Positions 8,959 through 12,062 of a DNA stretch of 49,582 nucleotides are shown one piece after another. Made by a program: the position numbers and the translations under genes. The notes under the pieces were generated by a model. That model did no database searches. It was given only the letters and a program-made list of their open reading frames with translations, and was not told where the DNA came from. Position 1 is the first letter of the stretch, and each line of letters begins with the position of its first letter. The DNA comes from an uncultured Pelagibacteraceae bacterium (lineage in GTDB: Bacteria > Pseudomonadota > Alphaproteobacteria > Pelagibacterales > Pelagibacteraceae), in contig CACNFB010000007.1 in the NCBI GenBank assembly GCA_902619665.1, positions 1 through 49,582 of the forward strand. The letters are read 5' to 3'.

Positions 8959-9956
8959 TTTTTTACCAAATATGAGTCCACTAAATTTTTTAGTAAATTT
9001 ATATGATCTTCATTGTCATTTAAACATGGTATTAGATCGAAATTTTCACCACCAGCATCAACAAAAGACTCTTTTCCTTGAATCGCTATTTCCTCTAATG
9101 TTTCCACGCAGTCAGATGCAAAACCAGGGCAAATAACTAATATATTTTTTTTACCTTGTTTTGGAATTTCTTCTAAAGTCTTGTCTGTATAGGGTGTTAA
9201 CCATTCCTGTGGACCAAACCTTGATTGAAATGTTGTCATAATATCAATACTGTTAAATTTTTCTTTTAAAAGCCTTGTGGTTTTCATGCAATAGCAATGA
9301 TATGGATCACCTTTATCAAAATATTTTTTTGGTATTCCATGATACGAGGCAACAATTAGATCTGGTTTCCAATTAATTTCGGAAATTTTCTTTTTAATAG
9401 AATTAACAATTGCGTCTATATAAAGAGGATTTTCCTCATAGTGAGATATAACTTGAAGGCTTGGCTGCCATCTCAATTTCATTAAAGATCTAAACACTTC
9501 ATCACAAACAGTTGCGGTTGTAGGTGATGCATACTGAGGATAAAGAGGCAATACTATTAAATTTTCACAACCTTTTTCCTTAAGATCTTTAATTTTTCCA
9601 TTGATACTTGGTGACCCGTATCTCATTGCAAAGTCAATTATTAAGTTTTCCATGTTAAATTTTTTGGATAATTTTTGAGTTTGCATCATGGTATAATATC
9701 TAAGCGGGGACATATTTTTATCTTTCATCCAAATTTCTTTATAAGCTTTTGCAGTTTTTGAGGGTCTAAATGTTAATATAAAAAGATTCAATATTATTTG
9801 CCAGAGGAAAGGGTTTACCTCTATTACTCTTTTATCAGATAAAAATTCTTTTAAATATTTCCTTATATCCCACCACCCGGTACTGTCTGGAGTACCAAGA
9901 TTAACTAATAATATTCCTGTCTTACCATAGTTTACTTTTGGGTGATTTTGGTTCAT
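8955..9956 (-). CDS. hemH: Ferrochelatase
   Basis: A 333-residue ferrochelatase that inserts Fe2+ into protoporphyrin IX as the last step of protohaem synthesis. Visible signatures are GILLVNLGTPDS near the N-terminus, PLYPQYA, the metal-binding histidine in VASYHGIPKKYF (with YHCYCMKTT following), TFQSRFGPQEWL, and the acidic CPGFASDCVETLEEI helix. The start overlaps the hemE stop by 4 bases and the stop overlaps the hemJ start by 4, so hemE-hemH-hemJ should be one transcript. I see no C-terminal membrane helix. Confidence 0.98.
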   Translation of the reverse strand: MNQNHPKVNYGKTGILLVNLGTPDSTGWWDIRKYLKEFLSDKRVIEVNPFLWQIILNLFILTFRPSKTAKAYKEIWMKDKNMSPLRYYTMMQTQKLSKKFNMENLIIDFAMRYGSPSINGKIKDLKEKGCENLIVLPLYPQYASPTTATVCDEVFRSLMKLRWQPSLQVISHYEENPLYIDAIVNSIKKKISEINWKPDLIVASYHGIPKKYFDKGDPYHCYCMKTTRLLKEKFNSIDIMTTFQSRFGPQEWLTPYTDKTLEEIPKQGKKNILVICPGFASDCVETLEEIAIQGKESFVDAGGENFDLIPCLNDNEDHINLLKNLVDSYLVKK

Positions 9957-10954
9957 GAGTAATTTTTAACTAATTTTACTAAATAATCTATCATACTAGG
10001 ATCAGTATTAGGCAACACACCATGACCAAGATTAAAAATATATGGTTTGTCCCTAAATATATCTAAATATTTTTTAACATTTTTTTTAAGTTCATCCTTA
10101 CCACCAATTAAAAAATTAGGGTTTAATCCTCCTTGGACTGTTATATCTATACTTTCTGAAATCTTCTTTGGATCAACATTATAGTCTATACTAATAACAT
10201 CTGGTTTAACTAAACTAACATATTCTTTATAATCATTAATCCCTTTAGGAAAACATATGACTGGTGTTTTTTTAGACTTCACAAAATTAACTAAGTCCTT
10301 GGTGGGATTATATATATATTTGTCATAATCTTTTCTATTTAAAAGCCCAGCCCAACTGTCAAATATTTGAATGATTGTTGCTCCACTTTCGATTTGGTTA
10401 TTTATATGAATTTTAAGAAACTTTACAATAACTTCTAATAAATCCTCAATAAATTTTTTATCTTTTAGATTAAGTTCAATGTCTTCGTCTTTAGGAGATT
10501 TTTTATTTAACATATAAACAAGAATTGTCCATGGTGCTCCAACAAATCCTATTAAATCTTTATTTTTTAACTCGCCTTTATTTTTTGTTTGTTTAATAGC
10601 ATTATAAACAGGCTTTAATTTATCTATAAATTGTATTTCATTAATGTTTGATATTTTATTAAAATCTATCTCACCTAATAATGGTCCAAAATCTTTTTTA
10701 AATTTTACTGATTGTCCTAGAGCAAAAGGTACCAATAAAATATCAGAAAATATTATTGCCGCATCCATATCAAATCTTCTTAATGGTTGAACTGTAATTT
10801 CAGATGACAGATTTTCATTTAAACATAGTTTTATGAAGTCCTTATGTTTAGATCTTATTTCCCTAAATTCTGGTAAATATCTACCTGCTTGCCTCATTAG
10901 CCATATACAGTTAATGTTCAATTTTTTATTTATACAATCCTGTAAAACAGTCAT
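9953..10954 (-). CDS. hemE: Uroporphyrinogen III decarboxylase
   Basis: A 333-residue enzyme that decarboxylates the four acetate side chains of uroporphyrinogen III to give coproporphyrinogen III. The N-terminal signature WLMRQAGRYLPEFR (about 18-31) contains the substrate-binding arginines. The second family signature GFVGAPWTILVYML is about a third of the way in, and IFDSWAGLL follows. It leads the minus-strand hem operon. It is the gene flanking the replication origin in Caulobacter and Rickettsia; here, too, its start borders the 283-base gene-free stretch. Confidence 0.98.
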   Translation of the reverse strand: MTVLQDCINKKLNINCIWLMRQAGRYLPEFREIRSKHKDFIKLCLNENLSSEITVQPLRRFDMDAAIIFSDILLVPFALGQSVKFKKDFGPLLGEIDFNKISNINEIQFIDKLKPVYNAIKQTKNKGELKNKDLIGFVGAPWTILVYMLNKKSPKDEDIELNLKDKKFIEDLLEVIVKFLKIHINNQIESGATIIQIFDSWAGLLNRKDYDKYIYNPTKDLVNFVKSKKTPVICFPKGINDYKEYVSLVKPDVISIDYNVDPKKISESIDITVQGGLNPNFLIGGKDELKKNVKKYLDIFRDKPYIFNLGHGVLPNTDPSMIDYLVKLVKNYS

Positions 10955-11039
10955 AATAATAGATTAAGTAATATTTATATTATTTGTATTAGAGATGTTA
11001 ATATTGAATATTACTATTTTCTAACACTTTTATAACATC

Positions 11040-11048
11040 TTTTTCACA
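11040..11048 (+). promoter_or_regulatory. DnaA-box match TTTTTCACA
   Basis: The 9 bases fit the relaxed DnaA box TTWTNCACA. They abut the first of three ATTAA-starting 13-base repeats, an arrangement like a DnaA box bordering a DNA unwinding element. Confidence 0.55.
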
Positions 11049-11087
11049 ATTAATTTGTCTAATTAATCTTAGAAATTAAGGATGATT
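11049..11087 (+). repeat. Three tandem 13-base AT-rich units in the putative origin
   Basis: ATTAA occurs at 11049-11053, 11062-11066 and 11075-11079, so the phase is exactly 13 bases. The remaining 8 bases of each unit are not conserved (TTTGTCTA, TCTTAGAA, GGATGATT). The phase and the position next to a DnaA box suggest an unwinding element, but in such AT-rich DNA part of this could be chance. Confidence 0.45.
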
Positions 11088-11125
11088 GCAAATAATATAA
11101 TTTTATTCAAAAAAAGGTATATTGT

Positions 11126-11134
11126 TTATACACA
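11126..11134 (+). promoter_or_regulatory. DnaA-box match TTATACACA
   Basis: TTATACACA matches the stringent E. coli-type box TTATNCACA. It lies 86 bases downstream of the first box, on the same strand, within the hemE-ppsR gap. Confidence 0.65.
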
Positions 11135-11170
11135 TGTTTTATAATGTTATTAAAAAGCTTTTTTTTGATT

Positions 11171-11203
11171 TTGGACGCTAGAATTTGTAAGTTTGTTTAT
11201 AAT
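11171..11203 (+). promoter_or_regulatory. Possible promoter of the ppsR-maf-aroE-coaE-dnaQ operon
   Basis: TATAAT at 11198-11203 with an upstream TG is a good -10 candidate 35 bases before the ppsR start. The nearest -35-like hexamer TTGGAC (11171-11176) is 21 bases upstream, longer than the usual 17, so the assignment is weak. Confidence 0.35.
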
Positions 11204-11237
11204 TTAATATTAATACATAATTCTTTATTAATTATAC

Positions 11238-12062
11238 ATGAGTAATACATATGAAATTTACCTAGTCTCGGATTCAACTGGTGAGACATTGGAAAGAATA
11301 TTCTTAGCTATTAAAGCCCAATTTAAAAATTTCAATTACAAAACTCACTATTTCTCATTTACACGAACTGAAAATCAAATTTTAAAAATAATAGAAAATT
11401 CAACCCAAAATAAAAATTCTATCTTCTTGTACACAATAGTAGATAATAAACTTGCTCAATTTTTATCAACAGAATGTAGTAAAAAAAAAATCCCTTGTTT
11501 TGGTGTATTAGGAGATCTTATTTTAACTTTCTCAAAATTATTAAATCAAGAAGCAAGCCACATTCCTAGTGGACAACATGTGATGAATGATGAATATTAC
11601 AAGAAGATCGAAGCTATACAATTTACTATGAACCATGATGATGGAAATTCATTAGATGATATAGGTAAATCTGATATTATTCTATTAGGAGTTAGCAGAA
11701 CAAGTAAAACACCTACCTCAATTTATTTAGCAAATAAAGGTATGAAAATTTCTAATATACCTCTAATAAACGAACAATCAGTCCCAGAATTTTTAAAAGA
11801 GAAACCAGACTTGACTTGTGTCATAGGCTTAACAGCAGAACCAGATAGATTAGTAGATTTAAGAAAAAATAGAATGCAATCTATAAAAGAGAATGAAAAC
11901 AAAAACTATATAAACTTTGAAAAAATTAAAAACGAAATAGAAATATCAAAAAAACTTTTTCAAAAATACAACTGGCCAACTATAGATGTTACAAGAAAAT
12001 CAGTAGAAGAGACCGCAGCCTCAATACTTAAAATTCACGACATATTTAACCATAATGAATAA
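11238..12062 (+). CDS. ppsR: Pyruvate,phosphate dikinase / PEP synthase regulatory protein (DUF299)
   Basis: The protein has 274 residues and belongs to the DUF299/COG1806 family, bifunctional ADP-dependent kinase / Pi-dependent pyrophosphorylases that switch PPDK or PEP synthase off and on. It begins YLVSDSTGETLERI, the family signature, and has a P-loop-like GVSRTSKTPTSIYLANKG around residues 151-168. It is the first gene to the right of the putative origin, the position held by its homologue in Rickettsia (RP001) and Caulobacter. It overlaps maf by 8 bases. Whether the target here is PPDK or PEP synthase cannot be told, since neither is in the window. Confidence 0.95.
   Translation: MSNTYEIYLVSDSTGETLERIFLAIKAQFKNFNYKTHYFSFTRTENQILKIIENSTQNKNSIFLYTIVDNKLAQFLSTECSKKKIPCFGVLGDLILTFSKLLNQEASHIPSGQHVMNDEYYKKIEAIQFTMNHDDGNSLDDIGKSDIILLGVSRTSKTPTSIYLANKGMKISNIPLINEQSVPEFLKEKPDLTCVIGLTAEPDRLVDLRKNRMQSIKENENKNYINFEKIKNEIEISKKLFQKYNWPTIDVTRKSVEETAASILKIHDIFNHNE

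Follow-up and report, generated by a model that had tools for sequence, protein, structure and literature searches.

The window analysed here is a stretch of 49,582 bases from an uncultured SAR11 (Pelagibacteraceae) bacterium, contig C7 of a 28-contig draft genome that is 87% complete. Between hemE and ppsR (COG1806/DUF299), recognised by their PF01208 and PF03618 matches, it holds a gap of 283 bases with 17% GC (Table 1). The gap had been described as the largest gene-free stretch, which it is between closed ORFs when ORFs of at least 50 or at least 80 aa are counted; longer still is a stretch of 749 bases at the end of the contig, and raising the limit to 100 aa adds two more that exceed it (380 and 293 bases). 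In a closed relative, called ORFs are spaced by a median of 2 bases, and divergent pairs by 72. DnaA is encoded in the window's own genome, with helix-turn-helix and ATPase domains. Its gene stands on another contig than the origin (L001 940-2328, G000:C9), and the helix-turn-helix reads RDHTTVIHS.

For comparison with relatives, a scan of genome contigs yielded 54 ppsR loci, and of 61 genomes searched, 31 matched, one of them the window's own and every one in the window's genus. Rows without hemE or with a truncated ppsR (L032, L050, L051 and L054) were left out, as was L056, which is the window itself; 80 gaps including the window were extracted, of which 75 were distinct (the window and 74 relatives) and five were duplicates. 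Gap length is held within the narrow range given in Table 1 even where HemE identity is as low as 55%; for some gaps the hemE start was extrapolated from the alignment.

Box positions were obtained by scanning the alignment columns of the 75 taxa with TTATNCACA, allowing at most two mismatches, and using the reversed word as control, which reached a maximum of 44% in the gap; a further control word, TATTNACAC, was discarded because it overlaps the box shifted by one base. This gave a left module of one reverse and three forward DnaA boxes (R1, F1, F2, F3) and a right module of one forward and one reverse box (F4, R2). Their spacing is rigid, with 22 bases from R1 to F1, 11 from F1 to F2 and 11 from F2 to F3, each in 75/75 gaps, and 19 bases from F4 to R2 in 74/75. 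The two modules have column identities of 0.69 and 0.71, the hemE side 0.65 and the spacer 0.51; ahead of the ppsR-side sites the value is 0.46. In the window, several boxes are two to three mismatches off the consensus, and TTWTNCACA matches the gap twice, where 500 dinucleotide shuffles average 0.05 matches (P 0.004). At box position 6, A is commoner than C at R1, F1, F2, F4 and R2, and C prevails at F3. All letters quoted in the original prediction (TTTTTCACA, ATTAATTTGTCTA, ATTAATCTTAGAA, ATTAAGGATGATT and TTATACACA) are present where it placed them, and its first box is the conserved F3. The position of its second, stringent box is kept as F4, but most close relatives read TTATAAACA there. 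Most of the conserved sites of the gap were overlooked, and the anatomy was half right.

Table 1. Features of the hemE-ppsR gap and its flanks (box conservation: at most two mismatches, 75 taxa).
Feature	Position	Strand	Sequence or type	Conservation or support
hemE	9953-10954	minus		PF01208 match
hemE-ppsR intergenic gap, putative oriC	10955-11237			281-286 bases in 65/75 distinct gaps
Trinucleotide array, DnaA-trio-like, predicted opening site	10978-10992	+	TAT TAT TTG TAT TAG	TA[GT] triplets in fixed frame from R1
DnaA box R1	10996-11004	-	TGTTAATAT on +, degenerate	97%
Possible second reverse box R1', directly abuts R1	11005-11013	-	degenerate	15% only
DnaA box F1	11018-11026	+	TTTCTAACA, degenerate	73%
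DnaA box F2, weakest of F1-F3	11029-11037	+	TTTATAACA, degenerate	44%
DnaA box F3	11040-11048	+	TTTTTCACA	95%
AT-rich spacer holding the ATTAA array	11049-11125		poorly conserved	column identity 0.51
DnaA box F4	11126-11134	+	TTATACACA	83%
DnaA box R2	11145-11153	-	TGTTATTAA on +, degenerate	96%
Weaker box-like sites, last overlaps ppsR start codon	11211, 11221, 11232 (11211-11240)	+		55%, 49%, 79%
ppsR (COG1806/DUF299)	from 11238	plus		PF03618 match

Among offsets 6-15 from R1, that of R1' was the best, with a mean of 3.2 mismatches (runner-up 4.4). The stretch after R1 (11005-11013) contains an invariant G, at column 11 of a 34-taxon alignment, and is similar to CGGGGAT, one half of the class-wide box pair described below. 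The three weaker sites near ppsR are of uncertain role and doubtful as DnaA boxes, because within ppsR there is one place where the box word reaches 67% (coding position 11243) and one where the reversed word reaches 61%. The last of them, TTATACATG across the ppsR start codon (11232-11240), is kept letter for letter in 54/75 taxa and could serve as a box-like site, in translation or as a promoter signal.

For genome-wide searches, a 53-base sequence model of the left module was built from 34 taxa, with the window's subclade excluded. In the window's own genome, the best match of this held-out model lay exactly at 10996-11048 (E 3.3e-6, 27.6 bits) and was the only strong one, the second scoring 14.3 bits. 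Across the genus, 240/250 genomes matched at E<=0.1 and 186/250 (a hand count) at E<=1e-3, in a survey where some genomes had fed rows to the model, most were fragmentary, and weak matches may be chance; of 37 genomes at least 90% complete, 37 matched at E<=0.1 and 36 at E<=1e-3. In the closed genome G012, a PWM built without G012 gave the gap 33.3 bits and the runner-up 8.5. Exact TTATNCACA occurs at 54 sites and exact TTATNMACA at 270 sites in that genome, and the sole pair of the former and the sole triple of the latter within 283 bases both lie in the gap. In a second closed genome, G106, of which 1.2 Mb was read, the gap has four exact TTATNMACA sites and other places at most two, and exact TTATNCACA forms no pair in the part read. 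The box cluster of the AT-rich gap is distinct genome-wide in this sense, and loses its distinctness under loose matching: a coding stretch of G012 at 1,324,394 exceeds the gap once one mismatch is tolerated (6 vs 5 box matches), and at two mismatches 1-8% of the windows scanned equal the origin. The cluster at 1,324,394 was rejected as a rival origin, being coding DNA with degenerate sites. The right module alone, searched in G012, had six best places (12.8-14.9 bits) that exclude the gap.

GC skew was calculated for both closed relatives. In G012 (5,000 bases masked), the skew maximum was at 615,774 and the minimum, in a broad flat stretch, at 1,290,841 (all sites) or 1,308,909 (third positions), 29 and 47 kb from the module at 1,261,990. 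In G106 (1,200,000 of 1,437,930 bases read, 8,000 masked), the minimum was at 939,975 (all sites) or 904,690 (third positions), giving offsets of 29 and 6 kb from the module at 910,570. The skew minima thus place the gap within 50 kb (6-47 kb) without pinpointing it.

The original prediction had coupled its first box to an unwinding array of three ATTAA units in a strict 13-base phase (ATTAATTTGTCTA at 11049, ATTAATCTTAGAA at 11062, ATTAAGGATGATT at 11075). The units are there, but their phase is barely beyond chance, because the free choice of word and period has to be counted: of 2000 shuffles, 11% contain some 5-mer repeated three times with a fixed period between 8 and 16 (1.4% at period 13), and 0.35% contain an ATTAA array at one of these periods. 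No distinct relative (0/74) has three ATTAA units spaced by 13 bases, and 2/74 (L005, L052) have two units at the corresponding place. Alignment of the gap across relatives, on which the prediction had staked both its boxes and its phase, keeps the boxes in position and loses the 13-base phase, and with it the box-plus-array design at 11049-11087, in a spacer that is itself poorly conserved. The ATTAA array was accordingly rejected as a conserved unwinding element, and an Escherichia coli-type element of conserved tandem AT-rich 13-mers beside boxes was found in 0/74 relatives.

The conserved unwinding-type repeat of the gap appears instead to be the trinucleotide array at 10978-10992, on the opposite side of the module from the ATTAA units, which in its sequence resembles DnaA-trios. 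In the window, the array is followed by the 3-base spacer AGA and then R1; a 3-base spacer is seen in the 16 gaps of the window's subclade that were inspected, and the distance is 4 bases in most other taxa. The TA[GT] pattern, picked post hoc from inspection of the alignments like the TNG pattern below, forms runs of at least two triplets on the + strand at the hemE side of R1 in 73/75 taxa (shuffle mean 32.8), and beside R1 runs of three in 30/75 (shuffles 6.4) and of four in 16/75 (shuffles 0.9). When taxa were collapsed at 80% identity, 29 remained, and TA[GT] made up 68% of their first three triplets at a distance of four bases from R1, compared with 14% and 2% in the other frames. Beside R1, the strict trio pattern 3'-[GA]A[TA]-5' was not enriched (3/75 vs 4.7 in shuffles), nor were middle-A runs of three (41/75 vs a shuffle mean of 45.5), and neither TA[GT] nor strict patterns were enriched 3' of F3 or 3' of R2 at runs of at least three. 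Since the hemE-side array keeps a fixed register and resembles DnaA-trios, strand opening would be expected on the hemE side.

A second family of the same order (f2; G037-G060) has PpsR in 0/24 genomes, and hemE was found in 21/24. In 21/21 of these loci hemE faces maf across 265-280 bases (for example L165 2466-2742), and the gaps carry T-N-G/T-A-T triplets in the SAR11 frame, such as TAGTAGTAGTAGTTGTACC before TGTG, together with a reverse box. The SAR11-trained left module had no match in the 21 f2 hemE loci (best -11.0), and the f2 resemblance therefore rests on the triplets, the reverse box and the gap length. The origin-like gap between hemE and maf would fit a loss of ppsR next to the origin.

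These comparisons bear on where an origin in the gap would open. Opening might take place in the AT-rich spacer beside F3, in the E. coli manner, the hemE-side triplets serving otherwise, for example as part of the hemE promoter; the spacer has 17% GC and abuts the box array, and as unwinding elements need not be conserved in sequence, this course keeps some plausibility. It is nevertheless unlikely, given that the 13-base array recurs in none of the relatives, that spacer columns are less conserved than those of the modules, that trios are not enriched 3' of F3 or R2, and that the frame of the hemE-side array is kept across two families. A promoter role for the triplets is further disfavoured by promoter-like words in 10900-11300, which fall below the shuffle mean (3 vs 4.7), none of them ending in the array.

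The gap could also be mainly a divergent promoter/operator region of hemE and ppsR, with regulatory DnaA boxes and replication starting elsewhere. Since the two genes diverge, promoters are to be expected in the gap or nearby, and the 6-47 kb to the skew minima fit such a reading. A pure promoter region is made unlikely by f2, which shows no PpsR and yet keeps the gap, now to maf, with the reverse box and triplets in the frame of SAR11, and by consensus promoters, which show no excess over shuffles in 10900-11300; moreover, neither the left module nor the exact-box cluster has an equal elsewhere in G012. Very little credence is left for this alternative.

On the strength of the hemE/ppsR synteny, the rigid box spacing throughout the genus, the module as the sole strong match in its own genome, and a position at most 50 kb from the skew minima of G012 and G106, the gap at 10955-11237 is very probably the oriC of this SAR11 bacterium, and the earlier reading of it as a replication origin is upheld. 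It joins the hemE-linked origins, of which that at hemE-COG1806 in Caulobacter crescentus is already known and that in Rickettsia has been proposed (PMC1914354). It is like both in its flanking genes, AT-rich gap and several DnaA boxes, and is shorter than that of Rickettsia, 283 vs about 384-395 bases (PMC1914354). GANTC methylation in Ca. P. Giovannoni NP1 follows a gradient from origin to terminus, and such gradients imply an origin in Pelagibacter (PMC9516812); a search limited to open-access papers found no mapped or dissected SAR11 origin. GANTC, a methylated motif in Pelagibacter, is present in 4/75 gaps vs 29% in mononucleotide shuffles, with relatedness uncorrected. The CtrA site TTAA-N7-TTAA is absent from the window's gap and present in 26/75 taxa vs 23% in shuffles, and the IHF site WATCAAN4TTR is absent from the window's gap; the gap is, as judged from these motifs, not classed as CtrA- or IHF-controlled. 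Pelagibacter is reported to have no ctrA ortholog (PMC2877005). By orientation, WATCAAN4TTR occurs in 10/75 and 1/75 taxa vs 3% and 7% in shuffles.

By its layout, the gap probably works like the basal unwinding system of Bacillus subtilis, with which it shares a one-sided triplet array by a DnaA box, on the expected strand, few bases off and in a fixed register (PMC8287927, PMC10721633, PMC6727663); the array lies within 16 bases of the box. The degenerate R1' at +9 is a candidate for a tandem, co-oriented box by the array, and single boxes also occur in the published basal unwinding set (PMC8287927). In published DnaA-trios the middle A is fixed and the ends vary (PMC6727663, PMC8287927), whereas the SAR11 array has a constant 5' T, a middle A or T and a last base G or T, and the class-level TNG element has constant ends and a variable middle. 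Outward from R1, the window reads TAG, TAT, TTG, and thus lacks three or more consecutive middle-A triplets; because TTG breaks the middle-A rule, the gap is not classed as a strict basal unwinding system. The forward boxes recall the low-affinity DnaA sites of E. coli oriC, which are set 2 bases apart (PMC6070618), in being degenerate 9-mers with a 2-base separation, that is, an 11-base step; unlike E. coli oriC, SAR11 has one co-oriented array of three, a consensus that leans to TTATNAACA, and no conserved 13-mer L/M/R element.

From the location, box positions, fixed spacings, uniqueness and array register, as read in the sequence, we infer DnaA binding, hemE-side opening and an order of events as follows. 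DnaA would bind the array R1-F1-F2-F3, in which neighbouring forward boxes are separated by roughly a helical turn, as well as the pair F4/R2. A DnaA-ATP filament would then grow from R1 toward hemE onto the + strand of the triplets at 10978-10992, in a manner similar to basal unwinding in Bacillus subtilis, the duplex would open there, and helicase loading would come after opening. We consider it likely that the gap is a chromosomal origin operating in this way, with DnaA on both box groups and opening at the hemE-side array.

For other alphaproteobacteria, 30 loci were examined among 43 matches listed (one being the window's own), and hemE and ppsR were divergent in 27/30, L280, L294 and L295 being dropped for want of a divergent hemE. 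Runs of at least three 5'-TNG-3' triplets were found in 14/27 gaps, all in the hemE-side 40% of the gap, compared with 1/27 on the other strand, and runs of at least four in 6/27 (shuffle mean 0.3); 13/27 gaps had no run of three. In 13/14 gaps a box start in a loose sense (TGTG, TGTT, CGTG or CTGGG) came no more than 20 bases after the TNG run, often as CC-TGTGGATAA-CGGGGAT. The middle bases in the runs were G 21, A 19 and T 14 times. The class core TGTGGATAACGGGGAT exceeded all 50 shuffles in 15/27 gaps, and in 12 it did not. In position, strand and frame the TNG element is trio-like, and it may be read by DnaA. Tentatively, these gaps may share a class-wide DnaA-trio variant that includes SAR11, with a hemE-side 3'-GNT-5' of fixed ends and free middle, a short spacer and a box pair like TGTGGATAA-CGGGGAT, of which SAR11 would keep the element and the 22-11-11 ruler within some 283 bases and with no recognisable CtrA control.

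The trinucleotide pattern raises the question of whether the middle-A rule for DnaA-trios is valid outside the species studied. SAR11 bacteria rank among the ocean's most abundant cells, and an origin coordinate with a conserved ruler would make growth estimates from origin/terminus coverage, and work on the SAR11 cell cycle, directly testable.
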